IMG/VR virus record: IMGVR_UViG_3300032282_005473
Coordinates: 1-21,725 of that record
Source of the DNA: a virus
Length of the DNA stretch: 21,725 bases
Strand: one strand, 5' to 3'
The notes under the pieces are model-generated. The model saw nothing but the letters and a program-made list of their open reading frames with translations. It was not told the DNA's origin and did not search any database. Position 1 is the first letter of the stretch; each line of letters begins with the position of its first letter. The position numbers and the translations under genes were made by a program. Positions 5,188 through 21,696 of this stretch are shown piece by piece.

Positions 5188-5218
5188 GAAAAAGGGACTT
5201 AAGTCCCTTTTTCTTATT
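5183..5218. terminator. Bidirectional palindromic terminator (GGGAC stem)
   Basis: This is a perfect 36-nt palindrome (18+18) with core GGGACTTAAGTCCC flanked by A and T runs, so it can act as an intrinsic terminator in both directions. It contains the stop codon of bS21 (5185-5187) and, on the other strand, the stop codon of the lipoprotein gene (5214-5216). Confidence 0.9.
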
Positions 5219-6149
5219 GAAGTCTCACCATCCACAATCTAGCGTCGGGTGAACTTGTAACCATGATGTTACTAAAATTAGCGTTATTTACAACCCAGTC
5301 GTTGATAAAAGTACCTTGAACTTGTCCACTCCAATCACCACCAAGAGTGGTAAAAGAATAAAGTGATAAACTTTTCATGTTATTACCTACAACACTACTT
5401 AGGTTATAAGTACGTGGTGTTGAACCATTAATTTTATACTGAGTATTAGAAACAAACTCTAAAGTATCACTAGGGTAAGTAGAAACAAAGTTTTGAATAA
5501 ACTTAGTTACAACCCATTTAGTACCAACCAAACTTGTAACTACAGGAGTAGAACCACCGATAACACCGTTATAACTGTAACCAGCTGGTACATTGGAAAG
5601 AACAGGTGTACCTGTGAAACCAACCTTAACAAAAGTTAACACTGTATAGAAAGAGTAGTTATAAGTTCCATCGTTACCTGTACTTTCAAATACCTTAACA
5701 TTCATATAATCATTGGTTGAACTCAAAACTTCGATATTACGAGCAGAACCATTTTCTAAACCATAAACATTAAAAATACCATTAGTGTTAACATTATAGT
5801 TGTAAGTAGAACCACCATCCAAAACAAACTGATTAGAACTGTTAAATTTCCAATTAGTTGAACCTTTAGTGATTATATCAATCGGTAACCAAGATGGTGA
5901 AAAAATATCAAGATTACTTGAGGTTTTAGATGGGCCAAAATGGTCGTAGTAAAAAGTTGTGTTGTTGTCAAGATTTTTAACAAATACACGACCACTATAA
6001 AGTTCCCAAGTATAACCAATAGGGTTAACATTAGATGGGTTGTTAACGGTAGTTTGAGGGTTAGCTGGTTCGATAACTTCTTTCTTACAAGAAGTAAAAC
6101 CAAATACTAATGAAACTACGATAAAGATGTTGAAGATAATGTTTTTCAT
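5214..6149 (-). CDS. Phage-encoded lipoprotein, large
   Basis: This 311-residue protein has a signal peptide (MKNIIFNIFIVVSLVFGF) and lipobox TSC with the acylated cysteine at position 21, followed by KKEVIEPANPQ. A Ser/Thr/Asn-rich mature part follows, with two beta-rich sections: about 45-190 (GYTWELYSGRVFV ... YSFYTVLTFVKVGF) and about 205-311 (GTKWVVTKFIQN ... YKINGSTPRTYNL). The GTKW...L-F...Y...Y pattern in the second section resembles lipocalin-like or META-type barrels of Bacteroidota lipoproteins. It would be exported by the host Sec pathway and anchored in the cell envelope. It has its own host-type promoter (TTTG-N19-TATATTTG). A plausible role for a phage lipoprotein is superinfection exclusion by shielding a receptor; this is inference. 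Confidence 0.8.
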   Translation of the reverse strand: MKNIIFNIFIVVSLVFGFTSCKKEVIEPANPQTTVNNPSNVNPIGYTWELYSGRVFVKNLDNNTTFYYDHFGPSKTSSNLDIFSPSWLPIDIITKGSTNWKFNSSNQFVLDGGSTYNYNVNTNGIFNVYGLENGSARNIEVLSSTNDYMNVKVFESTGNDGTYNYSFYTVLTFVKVGFTGTPVLSNVPAGYSYNGVIGGSTPVVTSLVGTKWVVTKFIQNFVSTYPSDTLEFVSNTQYKINGSTPRTYNLSSVVGNNMKSLSLYSFTTLGGDWSGQVQGTFINDWVVNNANFSNIMVTSSPDARLWMVRLQ

Positions 6150-9115: not shown

Positions 9116-9540
9116 TTTCTATTAAAAGGTATTAAATTTAAACATTCCTCAATTGTTTTATTAGTTGTGTCCATGTCAATAAACTCTTCGGTTGGGATTT
9201 CAAAATCTTTGACGAAGAAATTTTCTCTACCTCTAATTTCATCGGTATGTACAAATACCTCAATAACTTTGTTGGTTTTCTTTAAAGAATCTCTCATCTC
9301 TCTATAGGGTGCTACAACTGAAACCACAACAGTAAAACCTTTATAGTCTAAGAATCGACACAAATCTAAAACAGATTGGATGTTCTTTCTTCTACCTTCT
9401 TCAGAGTAGTCAAAATTTTGGAATAGTTCTCTTAAACCATCCCCATCGATGTGAATACAAGTATCACTACTTCTTTCAATCATTGCTGTTGCTAGAGTTG
9501 TCTTACCAGCACCAGGTTGTCCACAAAACCAATAAATCAT
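9112..9540 (-). CDS. APS-kinase-like (CysC-like) protein
   Basis: APS kinase phosphorylates adenylyl sulfate to PAPS, the donor for sulfotransferases. This 142-residue protein has a Walker A motif (GQPGAGKTT, residues 7-15), HIDGDGLRELF matching the LDGDNVR motif, RRKNIQSVLDLCRFL matching ENIRRIGEVAKL, and VVAPYREMRDS matching ISPYRADRD. EVFVHTDEI followed by GRENFFVKDFEIP aligns with the region that contains the lid. It is about 50 residues shorter than typical CysC (around 200) because the lid and ends are trimmed. It overlaps both the sulfotransferase gene upstream and the nucleotidyltransferase gene downstream by ATGA. A related P-loop kinase with another substrate is possible, but the context supports PAPS production. 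Confidence 0.85.
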   Translation of the reverse strand: MIYWFCGQPGAGKTTLATAMIERSSDTCIHIDGDGLRELFQNFDYSEEGRRKNIQSVLDLCRFLDYKGFTVVVSVVAPYREMRDSLKKTNKVIEVFVHTDEIRGRENFFVKDFEIPTEEFIDMDTTNKTIEECLNLIPFNRK

Positions 9541-10358
9541 ACGTATTTAAATTCGTCAAAAAACCATTTATAACTTTGTTTAATTCTATCGTAAGAATTA
9601 AAACCTAAAATCTCTCTGTGATCATTCTTTAGAGGTTCTATTTTGGATTTTATGGTATGGTCACCATAGATACCATGAACAGAATCATCTTCAAATGTTA
9701 TTTGCTGTACATTATTAAAGTCGTGACCTTCAAAATAAGGCAACTCTAAATAATCATACACACGTCTTATTTCTTTCTCTGGGTTGTCACAAAGGTCTTC
9801 AAAACGAATAAATAACATTTTTTCATTAATACCTTCATGGAAAATTTGTTGTAATCTTTCTACGGCTAATCCGATTGGCGGTGTGTTCGACCAATACTCA
9901 ACTCTCTTATCTGTTGTTGTATTTTTCATTTTACCGTGTTCAACCATATTAGGATCTGTATGTTGACTTTTTCTAAAATTTTTTTCCATCGATGTGTAGA
10001 TACCCCTTAAATCCCTAACCATACAAATAACTTTAGGGTTTGGATAAAAGGAATTTAAAAAATTATAATGAATACCCCAACCACGACTTTTATCTAAAAT
10101 ATAAGGTTTATCAGTTATACCATCGAAAAATCCTTCTAACCCATTTTTACAATAAGATAAAAAGGCCTTTTTCATTAATTCAGAATCTTGTGCTTTGAAT
10201 TCTGGTGAGTTGGTGTAATTACTTCTTGAAGCGTAAAGTAATTCTAATACTCCTGATGTTGGTGTTACATAAAACTCAGGGTTTTGTCCCATTACATTTT
10301 GTAATAAGGTTGAACCTGCTCTAGGGAGAGAGGATTGGAAAAATATTTTTTGATTCAT
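9537..10358 (-). CDS. Sulfotransferase family protein
   Basis: This 273-residue protein carries the 5'-phosphosulfate-binding loop FFQSSLPRAGSTLLQNVMG (residues 6-24) and a 3'-phosphate-binding element VICMVRDLRGIYTSMEKNF (110-128, with R115 and S123 as the expected contacts). LYIRFEDL-type residues appear as MLFIRFEDLCDNP. It should transfer sulfate from PAPS to a hydroxyl or amine acceptor that the sequence does not identify. It is the first gene of a four-gene overlapping cassette and lies 38 nt downstream of the gene after the tail fibre. Likely acceptors are host surface glycans, lipids, or tail-fibre glycans or tyrosines; all are inference. Sulfotransferases are a recurrent accessory gene of large phages. 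Confidence 0.88.
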   Translation of the reverse strand: MNQKIFFQSSLPRAGSTLLQNVMGQNPEFYVTPTSGVLELLYASRSNYTNSPEFKAQDSELMKKAFLSYCKNGLEGFFDGITDKPYILDKSRGWGIHYNFLNSFYPNPKVICMVRDLRGIYTSMEKNFRKSQHTDPNMVEHGKMKNTTTDKRVEYWSNTPPIGLAVERLQQIFHEGINEKMLFIRFEDLCDNPEKEIRRVYDYLELPYFEGHDFNNVQQITFEDDSVHGIYGDHTIKSKIEPLKNDHREILGFNSYDRIKQSYKWFFDEFKYV

Positions 10359-10993: not shown

Positions 10994-13720
10994 TTATGAT
11001 GTTACTCCAGTAATTACCAAATTATCAAGAGTATCATAGTAACTTAATCTTAATATTGGTGTTGTGTTGTTGAAAATGATACAAGTGTAGTTACCATAAA
11101 CATGTGTTGCTGATGTAAAATCAATTCCGATTACCGGATATTGTATTGTATTCGTAGTAAAATTACTAACTAAAGTGTTACTCTGGAAATAGTTGAAAAA
11201 ATTGTTACTAATACAAGAATCCCCAATGATATTATCATAACAAAAATTACCAAAAACGTTATCATAACAAGTACTATTAATTGTATTACCAGCGGAAAAA
11301 AACAAACCAAAGGACTCCCCAAGTATGTTACCAGAAAAATCACCGTTTGTTATATCATTCCCAAACATACTGTTAGCTTTATTTGATAAACAGTTGGGTC
11401 CAAAGGTATTAAACCAAGAAACATCACCAATAACATTATCAGCGAAGCCAGTATCTATTTGGTTTACGTTAAAAAAATAACCTATTGTGTTACCACCAAA
11501 ATAATTGTTAATTACGTTTGATTGGAACAATGATCCGATATTATTGTAATTAAAATTATCCCCAAATATGTTATTGTTACAACCAAAACCAATTTTATTA
11601 TTATAGTACCCACCACCACCGGTGTCAAATGTCGCGTTGTAGGTAAAATCGGTACTAATTTCATTACCGATAAAATTAGCTCTAATTAAATTACCACCAT
11701 TACCTGTGTCTGGCGTTTGAACGTCGATTCCGAAGTAACTACCTATTATGTTATCTTGAAACCTTTCTAAAATTATATTTGAAAGTCCGGAAGTCATATC
11801 ATTACCAAAATAATCACCAATTCTATTTCTTTCAAATCCAACACCAACAACATTTTTTAAGAAATAATTACCAATAACATTATCTTTTGGACCATAAACC
11901 AACAAAGGAGTTGGTGGGGATGATAAAGTTAAAACATCTGTAACCGTGGCGTAAGTATCCACGCCATCATCAATTATATCATTGGGTATTAAATCACCGA
12001 TAATAACCTGTAAATACATATCACCATCTTCACCTGTCATACCCGGGTAATTATTTGTAATTTCGGCAGTACCACCTATACCATTATCTATACTTGTACT
12101 ACTTGCAAAAGGGTTTAATCCTGTAATTTCTAAAGTACAATTACCACCACCACCTGTTACAGTTACAGTTTCATTGATTCCGTAATATGTACCGGCTGAA
12201 TTAATAGTAACACCTGTCACACCTCCAGCACTTGTAGTAATATTAACGACAAACCCAGAACCAGAACCACCTGTTGTTGTGTTAGTACCATCAACATAAC
12301 CAGTACCAAGGTTTGTTATACTAACACTAGCTATTGGAGCGTATACATTATTGTATATCAACCTTGTGAAGGTTGCCATTTTGTTACCACGAGGGACACC
12401 TGAACTATCAAGACCAAAATAATCACCTATTTTATTTCTTTCGGTTTCACGGCCAAAAATATTTGATTCGCCGTCAGGACCACCGCCACAATAATTACCT
12501 ATAATATTTTCTTGAAATTTTACACCAAAAATATTATTTGTACATTTATAACCAATTACATTTAATAAAAAGCTATCGTCAACAGTGTTGTAACTAAAAT
12601 TAGATCCAATTTTGTTTTGTGCAACCGAATTTCCAATAGTGTTTGCATAAAAGTTAGCTTCAATATTATTGTATTCAAAATAATCACCTATATTATTGTT
12701 ATAACCCGATTCTATGTGGTTGTGGATACAATTATTACCAAAAATATTATTTGTTGATTTAAAAACGTAACTGTAGTTAGGATCTGGGTCACCTATATAG
12801 TTATTATTACAACTATCATTAAATGTAATAGATTCACTATAATCACCTTCTATTGATTGGCCTATATAAACTTCTTTATATGATTTATAATTACTGTAAC
12901 TTGAGGATCTATAAAAAACATAATTTTTTCCAGAAAAAATCGTACCTGAATAATTAGGATCAACATAAACACTAATATCCGTATCACTATTAACACTAGC
13001 TACTTTAACCCCAACTTCATACCCTAATTCTTTTTTAGTATCTAATAATAGTATATCACCAATACTAATTTCTGATAGAAATAAAGTACTAGAACCATAA
13101 ATTTGTCCAGTAGTACAATCATAATCAGTAATAAAACCTGTCTGAGCACCAAGATTTCTTTCATATACTTGGTAACGTTTAACAGGCATCTGAATATGAT
13201 CGTAAGACGTTCTGTTATTATTTTCATCTATTAATTCAGTAATTCTACCTTTAGCCGGGATACCCATTATTTCGGTTGAAGAGTAGTTTATGTCGTATTC
13301 GATTTTGTTAAATGAATCTACTGAGTCGTAGGCTCTTGTATCAATACTATTTACTGACGTTGCCAAAACGAATATAGGATTAGTAGATCCAAAAAAAGTA
13401 TCAACCGATGTTTTATAATTACCATCTATAAAAAAATCGGGTTTGTCAAGGATGGTTTGGAAGTCTGATATTTGATAGTAAGTACCTGGGGTCAAACTAT
13501 TAGAACCAATCATTGAAACTAAGTCGGCGTAAGTTGTGTCACTAACAGAACCTGCCTCCAAATTTACAATACTCCCATTTGGATTTAATTTTTCATAAAA
13601 ACCTGAATTTAAATCAACACCAACATAGTAAGTGTCTGTAGTAGCAGTCAAAGCACCAATGTCTTGTCCGTTAACATATACCGTAGTTTTACCGTTTTCT
13701 ATTTGTATTATTCTTCCCAT
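10994..13720 (-). CDS. Tail-fibre-like protein with tandem NxIGxxFxx repeats
   Basis: At 908 residues this is the largest gene in the window. Residues 1-30 (MGRIIQIENGKTTVYVNGQD) form a probable attachment segment, followed to about 270 by non-repetitive beta-rich sequence. From about 290 to 440 and again from about 620 to 870 the chain consists of roughly nine-residue repeats of the form N-x-I-G-x-x-F-x-x (NTIGNSVAQ, NKIGSNFSY, NIFGVKFQE, NIIGNYC), which should stack as a beta-solenoid. Between the arrays, around 465-540, lies a Gly/Thr-rich domain (SITNLGTGYVDGTN ... VTVTGGGGNCTLEI) of a type common in phage structural proteins. No enzymatic residues are apparent. A receptor-binding fibre or spike is the best reading. 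An ATATTTAT box lies 12 nt before the ATG. Confidence 0.85.
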   Translation of the reverse strand: MGRIIQIENGKTTVYVNGQDIGALTATTDTYYVGVDLNSGFYEKLNPNGSIVNLEAGSVSDTTYADLVSMIGSNSLTPGTYYQISDFQTILDKPDFFIDGNYKTSVDTFFGSTNPIFVLATSVNSIDTRAYDSVDSFNKIEYDINYSSTEIMGIPAKGRITELIDENNNRTSYDHIQMPVKRYQVYERNLGAQTGFITDYDCTTGQIYGSSTLFLSEISIGDILLLDTKKELGYEVGVKVASVNSDTDISVYVDPNYSGTIFSGKNYVFYRSSSYSNYKSYKEVYIGQSIEGDYSESITFNDSCNNNYIGDPDPNYSYVFKSTNNIFGNNCIHNHIESGYNNNIGDYFEYNNIEANFYANTIGNSVAQNKIGSNFSYNTVDDSFLLNVIGYKCTNNIFGVKFQENIIGNYCGGGPDGESNIFGRETERNKIGDYFGLDSSGVPRGNKMATFTRLIYNNVYAPIASVSITNLGTGYVDGTNTTTGGSGSGFVVNITTSAGGVTGVTINSAGTYYGINETVTVTGGGGNCTLEITGLNPFASSTSIDNGIGGTAEITNNYPGMTGEDGDMYLQVIIGDLIPNDIIDDGVDTYATVTDVLTLSSPPTPLLVYGPKDNVIGNYFLKNVVGVGFERNRIGDYFGNDMTSGLSNIILERFQDNIIGSYFGIDVQTPDTGNGGNLIRANFIGNEISTDFTYNATFDTGGGGYYNNKIGFGCNNNIFGDNFNYNNIGSLFQSNVINNYFGGNTIGYFFNVNQIDTGFADNVIGDVSWFNTFGPNCLSNKANSMFGNDITNGDFSGNILGESFGLFFSAGNTINSTCYDNVFGNFCYDNIIGDSCISNNFFNYFQSNTLVSNFTTNTIQYPVIGIDFTSATHVYGNYTCIIFNNTTPILRLSYYDTLDNLVITGVTS

Positions 13721-13759: not shown

Positions 13760-13767
13760 ATATTTAT
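13760..13767 (+). promoter_or_regulatory. ATATTTAT box of the secreted protein gene
   Basis: Plus-strand ATATTTAT lies 17 nt before ATG 13785 in the 64-nt divergent gap with the tail-fibre gene. Confidence 0.4.
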
Positions 13768-13784: not shown

Positions 13785-15470
13785 ATGAAAAAACTACTTC
13801 TATTTTTATTTTTACTTTCCTTATTTAATGTAGGAAAATCTCAAATGTGTAATACAACCTCAACAAATATGGGGCTTTTAACAATGACCGGTGTATGGCA
13901 GAACGCTACAGGTACGTCAGGTGCTAAAAGATATTGGACATTTAATGCAACTGCCGGATGTACCTATGATTTTAGTACTTGTAATAGTTTGTTTACTAAT
14001 GACACCTATCTTAGGTTATATTCAGGTACAAACCCTTTAACAGCTATTTTACAAACATCCAATGATGATAACGGTCCTTTTTGTGCTAGTACTAAGGCAT
14101 CAATATCTTGGGTATGCCCAACAACAGGTGCTTACTCAATATTGGTTACAAATTGGTCTTGTGCAAACCTATCCGCAAGTACTATTTTAAGTTATCGACA
14201 AACTTGTTCACCACCCTATAATCCTTGTACAACAATACCTACAATCAATTGTGGGATAACAAATAATTTAACTGTTGCGTCAGGAAATGGTATATACAAT
14301 CCACCAACAACATCTTGTGGTTTTTCGACACCAGGTAAAGAATATATTTATTCTTTTACACCAACCGTAACAGGAAATTATGTAATATCTCAACCAACAA
14401 GTTTTGGTTATATTGATTGGTTTTATAAGGTAGCATCGGGTGGTTGTAATGGAACAGGATGGACTTGTATTGATGATATAACAAATGCGAACATAGGTAA
14501 CGCAAATGTTAACATCAATTTAACTGCAGGAACAACTTATTATATAATGGCTGACCCTGAAAGTACTGTTGGTGGTAATGTTGTTTGGACTTTAAACTGT
14601 CCTACCCCACCTGTGGCAAATGATAATTGTGGAAATGCTATATCAATCACAACACTACCTTATACAAGTCCTGTAACATCAAATAATCCTTCAACAGATG
14701 ACGTACCTACAAGTACTACAAGTTGTGGTACACAAGGTTCAAACGTTTGGTATACGGTTGTTGGTAATGGTAATCAGTTGACAGCGTCTACATGTGACGC
14801 TTCTTCTAATTTTGACACCGAAGTTAGAATTTATACAGGTTCTTGTTCCGCTTTAAATTCTATGGTAGAAATTGTTTGTAATGATGATGACGCGACTTGT
14901 GCTTCCAGTAATCTAAGGTCCACAGCTAGTTGGTGTTCTAACCCTGGGGTAACTTATTATATCTCAGTTGGTTATTATGCCTCGGGTGCTGGTTATGGTA
15001 ATTTTGTATTGTCCGTAACCGATGGTACACCTTGTGTTGTATTACCAATAGAATTGGTGGAATTTGGTGGACTTAATTATAATGATTATAATGATATTTT
15101 TTGGGTTACAGCAACAGAATTAAATAATAATTATTTTACATTAGAAAGAAGTACTGACGGTTTTACTTGGTCCGTAATCAAAACACAAGAAGGTTCAGGG
15201 ACCTCGTCAACACCACATTTTTATGAATATAAAGATTATGGTTTTACAAAAGGAAAAATAAATTATTACAGATTAAGTCAAACAGACTTTAATGGTCAAA
15301 AAGAATATTTTAATATTATTGCTGTTGAATCTAAGCAGGAAGTTAAATGTGATGAATACAAATATTATAGTATATTAGGTGATGAAATCGATATTAAAAA
15401 CGTCTCACCAGGTCTTTACTTAAGAAAATGTGGAGATTACACTGAAAAAATAATAAAATTAGGAAATTAA
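13785..15470 (+). CDS. Secreted multidomain protein with T9SS-type C-terminal domain
   Basis: This 561-residue protein has a Sec signal peptide (MKKLLLFLFLLSLFNVGKSQ). Three cysteine-containing beta-sandwich units follow, at about 21-140, 145-285 and 290-420, each with aromatic-Thr-Gly patterns (YWTFNATAGCTYDFSTC, TTYYIMADPES, VTYYISVGYYASG) like the pre-peptidase or binding domains of Bacteroidota secreted proteins. Residues about 420-520 (VLPIELVEFGGLNYNDYNDI ... ELNNNYFTLERSTDG ... INYYRLSQTDFNGQKEY) match the segment that precedes type A sorting domains. The tail (YYSILGDEIDIKNVSPGLYL then IIKLGN) has the LGxxI...GxYL...K pattern of the type IX secretion sorting domain. It should cross the outer membrane by the host T9SS and be surface-attached or released. 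Binding of host surface or of other phages is possible. A strong terminator follows. Confidence 0.85.
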   Translation: MKKLLLFLFLLSLFNVGKSQMCNTTSTNMGLLTMTGVWQNATGTSGAKRYWTFNATAGCTYDFSTCNSLFTNDTYLRLYSGTNPLTAILQTSNDDNGPFCASTKASISWVCPTTGAYSILVTNWSCANLSASTILSYRQTCSPPYNPCTTIPTINCGITNNLTVASGNGIYNPPTTSCGFSTPGKEYIYSFTPTVTGNYVISQPTSFGYIDWFYKVASGGCNGTGWTCIDDITNANIGNANVNINLTAGTTYYIMADPESTVGGNVVWTLNCPTPPVANDNCGNAISITTLPYTSPVTSNNPSTDDVPTSTTSCGTQGSNVWYTVVGNGNQLTASTCDASSNFDTEVRIYTGSCSALNSMVEIVCNDDDATCASSNLRSTASWCSNPGVTYYISVGYYASGAGYGNFVLSVTDGTPCVVLPIELVEFGGLNYNDYNDIFWVTATELNNNYFTLERSTDGFTWSVIKTQEGSGTSSTPHFYEYKDYGFTKGKINYYRLSQTDFNGQKEYFNIIAVESKQEVKCDEYKYYSILGDEIDIKNVSPGLYLRKCGDYTEKIIKLGN

Positions 15471-17518: not shown

Positions 17519-17914
17519 TTAGAGTGATTGATTTTTTAAATCAACATCAACAACAAACTTACCTTTTAAAAGTTTTCGACCTAAAAGAATTGGGAATTTC
17601 ATTTTACTTCTATCCGCCAATGTGAAATTGGTTCTAACTTTACGTCCTAAAACATTTATTAAAATTTTAACAACATATCTTTCTTCTGTGTGACCAAAAG
17701 AAGATTTGATTATCTTCTTTTTGAAAGAGTCAAATGTTACGACTTGTTTATTAGGAAGAAGGCATGTTATCACACCTTCTTTTTCTTTAATCCATTTAAC
17801 ACCTAAAGAAGATGTTGTAGCACCCGTATCAATACGAGCATGAATTATTTTCACACCTAATTCAGGAAAAGAAACAAACTCTTCCGAACCAATTATAGTT
17901 TTTGGTTTACTCAT
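17519..17914 (-). CDS. RimB-like retropepsin-fold protease (PF05618-type)
   Basis: This 131-residue protein has the DTGA active-site motif of retropepsin-like enzymes (HARIDTGATTSSL, residues 25-37, D29), the central TFDSFKKKII...ERYVVKILI strands, and the terminal signature FTLADRSKMKFPILLGRKLL with FVVDV. This is the pattern of the so-called ATP-dependent zinc protease family that includes RimB. RimB acts in the RimABK system with the glutamate ligase RimK, whose substrate is ribosomal protein bS6. I start it at ATG 17914; TTG 17926 would add four residues. It overlaps the metallophosphoesterase gene by 8 nt. No RimK-like ligase is in the window, so a substrate on host bS6 or another glutamylated protein is inference. 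Confidence 0.8.
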   Translation of the reverse strand: MSKPKTIIGSEEFVSFPELGVKIIHARIDTGATTSSLGVKWIKEKEGVITCLLPNKQVVTFDSFKKKIIKSSFGHTEERYVVKILINVLGRKVRTNFTLADRSKMKFPILLGRKLLKGKFVVDVDLKNQSL

Positions 17915-18904: not shown

Positions 18905-19345
18905 TTAATTTCGCTTTTCTTTTATTCTTTTTTCTAAAATTTCAAACAATTTACTGATTATTAAAAGACCTATTGTTATTAGAATGGGTGTGATGTAATA
19001 ACCTAAACCAATCATAACACCTATCGCACTTATAGCCCAAATAAAAGCCGCTGTAGTCACACCGATAATTTTATCGTCATGTTTCATTATAACCCCAGCC
19101 CCCAAAAAACCAATCCCTGTTACTATCTGACCTATTATCCTTGTTGGATCTATATTTGTAGAATCTTTTGATATCCAAAAAGATATGGTAGTTAGTATTG
19201 TAACACCCACAGCGATTAAAACATTAGTTCTAATCCCGGCCACTTTATTTCTTACTTCTCTATCATAACCAACTATAGCCCCACAGATAGTAGAAACCAA
19301 AATTTTAGGTAAGAAGTAGGCCATTATTTCTAATTCGTTATACAT
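18905..19345 (-). CDS. MgtC/SapB-family membrane protein
   Basis: This 146-residue protein matches the MgtC membrane domain: ILVSTICGAIVGYDRE (residues 15-30), VAGIRTNVLIAVGVTIL (35-51), QIVTGIGFLGAGVIMKHD and GVTTAAFIWAISAIGVMIGL, then two further hydrophobic segments and a basic tail (EILEKRIKEKRN). Four or five membrane helices are visible. The C-terminal cytosolic domain of Salmonella MgtC is absent, so this is the minimal form. MgtC of Salmonella inhibits the F1Fo ATP synthase and helps survival at low magnesium. It is last in an operon with DHFR and the receiver-like gene, overlapping the latter by 8 nt. A role in holding host membrane energetics or magnesium during infection is inference. 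Confidence 0.88.
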   Translation of the reverse strand: MYNELEIMAYFLPKILVSTICGAIVGYDREVRNKVAGIRTNVLIAVGVTILTTISFWISKDSTNIDPTRIIGQIVTGIGFLGAGVIMKHDDKIIGVTTAAFIWAISAIGVMIGLGYYITPILITIGLLIISKLFEILEKRIKEKRN

Positions 19346-19727
19346 TTAAATGTTTCTCCGCGTTTTTTAAGTAATCCCTAATATTTTTGGCCCCAATAGG
19401 ATTATGTGAGTGTACGTAGAATAACGGTAATTTATTACCGTTCTCAACACAATATTCAACTAACCATTTAGCGGCATCATATCCAGTTTTTTCTTTGAAA
19501 TCGGCAGTCAAAGGGTCAGGAGGACTTTCATGACCACCGTTTTGGAAATAAAATCTTGTATGTTCCATACCCAAATCATGGTCAAAACTGATATAATCGG
19601 GTAAACCATATTTTTTAATATAATTCACAAATTGATGAAAGTCTCTAACAATAACCCACTCACTTAAGTCTGTAATTGGGTAAATCATGTCTACCGACCT
19701 TAAATCATCTAAAAATAACTTTTTCAT
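19338..19727 (-). CDS. Cyclic-phosphate-processing receiver-like protein
   Basis: This 129-residue protein begins KKLFLDDLR and contains WVIVRDFHQFVNYIKKYGLP, then YISFDHDLGMEH, then YDAAKWLVEYC, and ends FYVHSHNPIGAKNIRDYL. The order LDD(L)R, SFDHDLG, KWL, and HSxNPxGxxNI is that of the receiver-derived family proposed to process cyclic phosphates at RNA ends, common in phages beside RNA-repair or nucleotide genes. No partner kinase or ligase is in the window. It overlaps the DHFR stop by ATGA and the MgtC start by 8 nt, so the three are one translationally coupled unit. Confidence 0.8.
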   Translation of the reverse strand: MKKLFLDDLRSVDMIYPITDLSEWVIVRDFHQFVNYIKKYGLPDYISFDHDLGMEHTRFYFQNGGHESPPDPLTADFKEKTGYDAAKWLVEYCVENGNKLPLFYVHSHNPIGAKNIRDYLKNAEKHLNV

Positions 19728-20191
19728 TTTTTAATCCAAGTTTGAAGTTTAAACCCTTCTTTTTGTTCATCATAGAAACACTTCCAACCTTGTTCAAATC
19801 CATATTCGGGGAAGTAAGTATCTCCTTGATATTCTCCGTCCACCAAAGATACGTAAATTCTTTGAATAAATGGAAAAAATTGTTTATAAATCTCACCACC
19901 ACCAATAATAAACACTTTTGGGTCTTCAGCGAAATCTCTAATAACATCTTCTACTCTGTCATAGATTAAACAATGTTCAGGTTTAAAATCTTTATCTTTT
20001 GTTAAAATAACGTTTAATCTTTTAGGTAAAGGCTTACCAATTGATTCAAAAGTTTTACGACCCATAATTACCGTTGAATTAAGGGTTAATGTTTTAAAAT
20101 TTTTTAAATCTTCAGGTAAGTGCCATAACAATTTGTTATTACCACCTATTAATCTATTTTTGTCGTGTGCGACTACTGCTGCAAAGTTCAT
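19724..20191 (-). CDS. folA: Dihydrofolate reductase
   Basis: DHFR reduces dihydrofolate to tetrahydrofolate with NADPH for thymidylate synthesis. This 155-residue protein has the family signatures: VVAHDKNRLIGGNNKLLWHL, PEDLKNFKTLT with the substrate-binding acid E27, VIMGRKTFESIGKPLPKR (NADPH site), NVILTKDKDF, and FIIGGGEIYKQFF. Position 22 is Leu where most bacterial enzymes have Pro (LPW), a mild departure. Phage DHFR commonly pairs with thymidylate synthase, which is not in the window. It is first of a three-gene minus-strand operon. I see no clean promoter; TATTTATTTG lies about 25 nt before the start. Confidence 0.95.
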   Translation of the reverse strand: MNFAAVVAHDKNRLIGGNNKLLWHLPEDLKNFKTLTLNSTVIMGRKTFESIGKPLPKRLNVILTKDKDFKPEHCLIYDRVEDVIRDFAEDPKVFIIGGGEIYKQFFPFIQRIYVSLVDGEYQGDTYFPEYGFEQGWKCFYDEQKEGFKLQTWIKK

Positions 20192-21208: not shown

Positions 21209-21646
21209 TTAATATGTAAACTCTATGATACCCATATCTTCAGTTGCGGTATTTAACCCATAAGACTCTTCAACATGGTCGTCATAATAAGAATTATCAC
21301 TAACAATAACTCTACGATAAGATTTTTCTACACCATCAATATAAACTCTCATTTCAAAATGATAAGAAAGTTGTCCAGATACAGCAAACTGTACTTTTTG
21401 ACCTTTTTCAAGTCCTATATAGTCATATCTCCAAACCTGTGGGATATTAAATCTATCAATACTCGGTTTTTTATCTGAGTAGTTTGGTGTGGCGTAGATA
21501 TCGATAAAATTAGATGCTCCAGTACCAGGAGTACCCAAGAAAGTAACTTCAAACGTAATTTTATGATAATCAGTTTTTTTACAAGAGGTAAAAGTAAAAC
21601 CGATTACCACCATCATAATAAAGTATATAAAGTTTTTCATTTTCAT
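21209..21646 (-). CDS. Phage-encoded lipoprotein, small
   Basis: I start this 145-residue protein at ATG 21646 (MKMKNFIYFIMMVVIGFTFT) because a consensus promoter lies just upstream, inside any longer frame. The signal peptide ends at the lipobox FTSC with the acylated cysteine at 22, followed by KKTDYHKITFEV. The mature part is a single beta-rich domain with paired strands (ITFEVTFLGTPGTGASNFID, VQFAVSGQLSYHFEMRVYID, VEKSYRRVIVSDNSYYDDHV), compatible with an immunoglobulin-like or C2-like sandwich. The lipobox and flanking residues resemble those of the lipoprotein at 5214-6149, but the mature parts differ. Envelope display during infection, perhaps for superinfection exclusion, is inference. 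Confidence 0.8.
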   Translation of the reverse strand: MKMKNFIYFIMMVVIGFTFTSCKKTDYHKITFEVTFLGTPGTGASNFIDIYATPNYSDKKPSIDRFNIPQVWRYDYIGLEKGQKVQFAVSGQLSYHFEMRVYIDGVEKSYRRVIVSDNSYYDDHVEESYGLNTATEDMGIIEFTY

Positions 21647-21665
21647 ATGTTTTTGATTTCTTTTA

Positions 21666-21696
21666 CAAAGATACAAAATAATCAACATTAACCAAA
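21666..21696 (-). promoter_or_regulatory. Bacteroidota-type promoter of the small lipoprotein gene
   Basis: Minus-strand TTTG (21696-21693), 19 nt, TATCTTTG (21673-21666): an exact consensus fit, with a leader of about 15 nt before ATG 21646. Confidence 0.75.

Follow-up and report, generated by a model that had tools for sequence, protein, structure and literature searches.

A predicted phage-encoded type IX secretion cargo protein with a short C-terminal sorting signal

The stretch of DNA analysed here (the window) comes from IMG/VR as a virus record 21,725 bases long, and it contains a 561-aa ORF with an ATG start (13785-15470, + strand) that we predict to encode a cargo protein of the type IX secretion system (T9SS). 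Our preferred explanation, which we consider probable, is that a T4-like phage infecting T9SS-bearing Flavobacteriia has a binding protein exported through a short C-terminal domain (CTD) to the cell surface or into the medium. The features on which this explanation is built are as follows.

13761..13767, + strand: TATTTAT, 24 nt upstream of the ATG, an element that virion genes and further cargo genes also have; candidate phage promoter element
13785..15470, + strand: predicted phage-encoded T9SS-type cargo, the whole ORF of 561 aa, from its homologues
13785..13841, + strand: Sec signal peptide, residues 1-19, MKKLLLFLFLLSLFNVGKS followed by Q, from the sequence and an AlphaFold2 helix at residues 2-18
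13842..14207, + strand: beta-sandwich domain 1, residues ~20-141, from the AlphaFold2 model
14220..14606, + strand: beta-sandwich domain 2, residues ~146-274, from the AlphaFold2 model
14610..15035, + strand: beta-sandwich domain 3, residues ~276-417, from the AlphaFold2 model and homologue alignment
15039..15326, + strand: FN3-like pre-CTD domain, residues ~419-514, LPIEL...W.TATE.NN.YFTLERS.DG...YYRLSQTDFNG, from homologues, the model and Foldseek
15336..15467, + strand: short CTD, residues ~518-561, from tail alignment, profile comparison and the model, compared with PMC11969387
15475..15507, no strand assigned: strong hairpin with flanking A/T runs, directly 3' of the cargo stop codon

The Sec signal claimed by the original prediction is borne out by the MKKLLLFLFLLSLFNVGKS-type N-terminus together with the modeled helix, and cleavage would be expected before Q20. 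By a simple rule, such a signal is also found in 87 of 105 distinct phage cargo proteins. The three beta-sandwich units that had been proposed are likewise seen as blocks in the AlphaFold2 model of the whole protein (pLDDT 66.6, 11 sequences) at residues about 26-140, 159-271, and 286-416, the third of which is missing from the homologues in L001 and L002; a fourth, separate beta domain follows at 424-514. A model of the last 150 residues reached a pLDDT of 90.3 with 58 sequences, and both models end in three strands at residues about 526-529, 543-549, and 552-558 (115-117, 132-138, and 141-147 in the numbering of the fragment, with a tail pLDDT of ~90). With Foldseek, the whole model is related to CUB, ColG collagen-binding, and MAM-like modules and the pre-CTD domain of the C-terminal model resembles FN3-like domains, all of these being likenesses at the level of fold only, because the TM scores are low. 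There was no CTD structure among the matches listed for the C-terminal model, the three-strand part probably being too small for Foldseek to recognize. An enzyme function was rejected, as no catalytic family was matched in NCBIfam, Pfam, or PHROG, and we propose that the cargo is a non-enzymatic binding protein.

The tail of ~44 aa (...YYSILGDEI...PGLYLRK...EKIIKLGN) carries motif B as YYSILGDEI (527-535), motif D as GLYL (543-546), and motif E as EKIIK (554-558), with 6-7 residues separating B from D in an alignment of 77 tails. Its conserved columns (G532, E534, G543, Y545, and K558) are common to relatives, which agrees with the C-terminal tail picked out originally, and a K or R occurs within the last nine residues of 102 of the 103 short tails. 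Overall, the segment after the FN3-like domain in the window protein and its phage relatives measures 50-62 aa and has the terminal pattern N.LGQEV...G.....Y.DGS..K. The type A form (TIGR04183/PF18962) is a CTD of 70-80 aa with seven strands and a YPNP start. The window tail is like it in its place after the FN3-like domain, in motifs that align in profiles, and in having a bacterial homologue with a type A CTD, but at ~44 aa it has three strands and no PNP motif, lacking the first (YPNP) half, four strands, and ~16 residues between B and D. When the ORF was searched against NCBIfam (to E 10), Pfam, and PHROG, no T9SS sorting model was matched, and the TIGR04183 cut-off of 23 bits was not reached, with no hit even at E 10. 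Formally, this is the outcome that had been named beforehand as speaking against a sorting domain; it is accounted for by the tail being a short-CTD variant, which contains motif B, motif D (GxY), and the basic motif E alone, few residues between B and D, and a single predicted three-strand sheet. Type B (TIGR04131) and type C (NF033708) domains are also T9SS C-terminal signals, and neither model matched any of 60 short-tail proteins at E 0.1. In a profile-profile comparison, 47 short tails aligned with 78 long CTDs at motifs B, D, and E (E 3.2e-4, prob 38.8), as against a best result of E 3.9e-3 (prob 8.6) from 100 column-shuffled controls. Scoring single short tails with an HMM of bacterial long CTDs was dropped as evidence, since the window tail reached 6.7 bits versus 10.7 for the best of 1400 shuffles and most single short tails score no better than shuffles.

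CTDs of this short kind have so far been shown by experiment only in Prevotella intermedia. It has 48 of them, some with demonstrated cleavage and glycosylation, and no other species has been reported to combine short with long CTDs; the short ones have been modeled as three strands binding PorV in the same way as long CTDs (PMC11969387). They resemble the window tail in their length of ~40-55 aa, in having only motifs B, D, and E with few residues between B and D, in their three predicted strands, and in their position at the C-terminus of exported proteins, a likeness taken from the published description only, whereas they belong to a different branch of the phylum and are not in phages (PMC11969387). 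For HBP35 of P. gingivalis, secretion needs no more than the final 22 residues.

The original prediction had also described the segment before the tail as typical of T9SS cargo, and this proved accurate. The ~100-aa FN3-like domain was confirmed in at least 567 bacterial stretches, all 80 of the 80 kept loci lie in Bacteroidota records, and in most of those bacterial proteins a canonical YPNP-type CTD directly follows the domain, which is the position occupied by the short tail in the window protein. A chromosomal homologue in the G003 genome aligns over residues 1-515 with 38% identity, has a canonical CTD at its C-terminus (TIGR04183 39.0 bits, PF18962 47.8 bits), and adjoins a PorP/SprF gene (223.8 bits). 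Because this homologue combines a canonical CTD with a place beside PorP/SprF, the phage protein is by descent a predicted T9SS cargo, with a CTD of the short kind. The short tag of bacteria ends a few residues from the stop and sits on unrelated N-terminal regions, often with Sec signals and in some cases without the FN3-like domain, a placement expected of a sorting signal. There are 27 copies in one genome, and SprA plus at least 100 TIGR04183 domains (long CTDs) are encoded in all 10 of the tested genomes with the short tag.

Searching with a short-tail query yielded 60 short and 3 long non-redundant tails from phages versus 10 short and 78 long from bacteria. When the viral contigs were re-searched with long-CTD queries, which reverses the bias, the phage tails remained mostly short (55 of 65). 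Pooling the cargo proteins with the FN3-like domain, short tails are found in 93 of 105 distinct phage proteins versus 10 of 88 bacterial ones, for which the Fisher value is descriptive only, since the tails are related to one another. Among 395 evenly drawn Bacteroidota genomes, the short tag occurs in four (about 1%), one of these being a partial long-CTD match, namely that in G180, one of the three outside G003, which was rejected as a short tag. The tag is present in 60 of 100 genomes from the GTDB family of G003, which takes in records labelled Fluviicola and Crocinitomicaceae, and in 174 of 299 sampled genomes (58%) from the corresponding Crocinitomicaceae-containing order. Confinement to a single family was rejected, as the tag spreads over this whole order, and its distribution points to the same order for the host of the window phage. 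The short-CTD examples that were tested (G003, G438, G538, and others) are unmatched by the NCBIfam and Pfam sorting-domain models, and annotation of this bacterial order probably misses T9SS cargo. In a tree of the FN3-like domain, the phage or bacterial label needs 24 changes, compared with a shuffled mean of 64.5. A direction of transfer was not taken from this tree, as it has too few columns and its supported branches force only 4 changes.

A search for homologues in other phages, suggested originally as a check, was positive. In L001-L006, the homologue is the first or second gene downstream of a T4-like major capsid gene, in L016 it is near such a gene, and in these records the homologues often form tandem pairs. 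Four phage records of 462-642 kb, LR756502, LR745206, LR756500, and LR756504, also contain the C-terminal part. Among the 18 related phage records, a canonical CTD over the cut-off was found in 11, including 462-642 kb phages, and both canonical and short forms in 7; many of the records used in the analysis are fragments. The L011 record is syntenic with the window, with most flanking proteins 61-90% identical, and its cargo carries another N-terminal domain in front of the shared C-terminus, which is 62% identical over 151 aa. From this swap within a syntenic setting, the N-terminal binding domains appear to be exchangeable modules, with the FN3-like domain and tag being kept.

The position of the gene after the T4-like major capsid gene in relatives could also suggest a virion protein, in which case the Ig/FN3-like domains would decorate the head or tail and the protein would be in the particle rather than secreted. 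Phage virions do often bear FN3/Ig-like domains, and the structural matches included some tail proteins. However, the window protein has a Sec signal, as do 87 of the 105 distinct phage cargo proteins, the best full-architecture bacterial homologue is T9SS cargo, and the genes flanking the cargo in both the window and L011 are not capsid genes. A decoy would be another function for such a protein: if overproduced, its CTD could occupy PorV/SprA and thereby block the display of host adhesins or phage receptors. The pre-domain and tag are the most conserved part across otherwise variable proteins, and a minimal tag would suffice to bind the shuttle, as a decoy would need. Yet F. johnsoniae secretes type A CTD fusions normally even when they are made in large amounts, PorV there being apparently in excess or recycled (PMC12618676), and elaborate exchangeable N-terminal binding domains would be needless for a decoy. 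Both roles are less likely than that of secreted cargo, and we assign a low probability to each.

Less probable still is a Sec-exported periplasmic protein with a degenerate and non-functional CTD, the tail being a truncated relic. The missing YPNP half, the four missing strands, and the absent TIGR04183 match would fit a relic, but a relic would decay, whereas this tail is conserved across phages (G532, G543, and K/R in 102 of 103), and there are bacterial genomes with up to 27 copies of the tag on diverse proteins. Host DNA misbinned as virus, which would make this an ordinary bacterial T9SS cargo, is extremely improbable and was rejected: the gene is bacterial in kind, but it is in a virus record with phage families around it, namely GP88 (PF17338, 2.3e-33), phage DHFR (phrog_316), and a phosphoesterase (phrog_547), and its relatives are found next to capsid genes as well as in phage records of 462-642 kb.

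The transcriptional setting of the gene bears upon when the predicted cargo would be made. Because there are minus-strand genes on both sides of the ORF and a hairpin directly after it, the latter likely a bidirectional terminator, the cargo ORF is probably its own transcription unit. TATTTAT is present in 36 of 107 cargo upstreams with a peak near -22, the background being 2.8% per 60-mer, and it is also found before the prohead protease and other structural-region genes. Since the element is shared by these genes, late expression of the cargo gene is somewhat favored. We consider TATTTAT to be a candidate promoter class of this phage group; in the window it is found upstream of 2249-2896, 10994-13720, 13785-15470, and 19724-20191, and in L005 upstream of several ORFs, in most cases some 20-30 nt ahead of the start codon. 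A T4 late motif (TATAAATA) located ~52 nt before the window ORF was dropped in favor of TATTTAT, as it occurs in only 5 of 99 cargo upstreams.

In the mechanism we propose for secreted cargo, the protein would probably be made together with virion genes and carried by Sec across the inner membrane of the infected cell, after which the host PorV/SprA translocon would recognize the short CTD as a minimal three-strand, type-A-like signal, and the binding domains would end up outside, either on the surface of the cell or released from it. For type A signals PorV suffices, and as it is apparently in excess or recycled (PMC12618676), a shuttle would not have to be supplied by the phage. That the phage uses the host T9SS, as originally suggested, is strongly favored by several independent lines of evidence, a match to a curated sorting model being the one part that did not hold, and secretion itself is likely. 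A benefit at the surface is more doubtful; it might come from changing the surface of the infected cell, whether by masking receptors, excluding superinfection, or letting cells or debris adhere. Speaking against secretion, the conserved FN3-like domain before the CTD might by itself be just a structural module. Tentatively, phages of this order may have settled on a minimal T9SS tag with exchangeable modules as their own set of secreted or surface proteins for late infection, the tag having spread by repeated exchange with hosts, possibly via phages.

Phage-encoded T9SS cargo had been called little described, which is fair, although it is not undescribed. Cryophage (2020) encodes three T9SS-CTD cargo proteins, an endoglucanase, a GH39 protein, and a PA14 protein (PMC7468147), T9SS sorting domains are carried by crAss-BACON cluster 2 phages (PMC6949934), and UniProt already lists, under the name 'Secretion system C-terminal sorting domain', a protein from an uncultured Caudovirales phage. 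The window family is like both of these phage groups in encoding such cargo, and like Cryophage (PMC7468147) in that the cargo varies between related phages. Their cargo was identified as sorting-domain proteins (type A in Cryophage), whereas the window family has short CTDs and beta-sandwich binding domains. A search of open-licence papers turned up no description of short CTDs for phages or for the Crocinitomicaceae group; what is new here is the tag in its short form, how strongly it predominates in phages, and where it is distributed. If this account is true, it is routine for phages of T9SS-bearing Bacteroidota to send their own proteins out through the host machine, and a tag overlooked by annotation has led to underestimates of the secreted proteomes of both phage and host. 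The ~44-residue tag also offers a natural minimal signal for probing the recognition needs of PorV and SprA, as well as a way into studying superinfection and surface change within a group of aquatic bacteria that is widespread.

Several other genes were observed along the way. In L025, the region 166-1129 upstream of a cargo pair encodes a protein with a canonical TIGR04183 CTD (40.4 bits) and an SprB-repeat ORF (PF13573, 3.3e-8), by their matches a small cluster of surface-type genes. In the window, the gene divergent from the cargo gene (10994-13720, - strand) encodes a 908-aa protein with many N.IG..F..N repeats (beta-helix-like) and no family match, perhaps a spike or fiber. Lipoprotein-type N-termini are encoded at 5214-6149 (- strand, ..FGFTSCKKE) and 21209-21688 (- strand, ..FTFTSCKKT), making these possible phage-made lipoproteins, and the former ORF has 89% identity to its counterpart in the syntenic phage L011. 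A sulfotransferase-like gene at 9537-10358 (- strand; PF13469 9.3e-19, phrog_27463 9e-41) is adjoined by an APS-kinase-like and a cytidylyltransferase-like ORF. The phage also encodes an MgtC family membrane protein at 18905-19345 (- strand; PF02308, 7e-34), a RimK-type zinc protease-like gene at 17519-17914 (- strand; PF05618), and a cREC_REC cyclic-phosphate receiver domain gene at 19338-19727 (- strand; PF20274).
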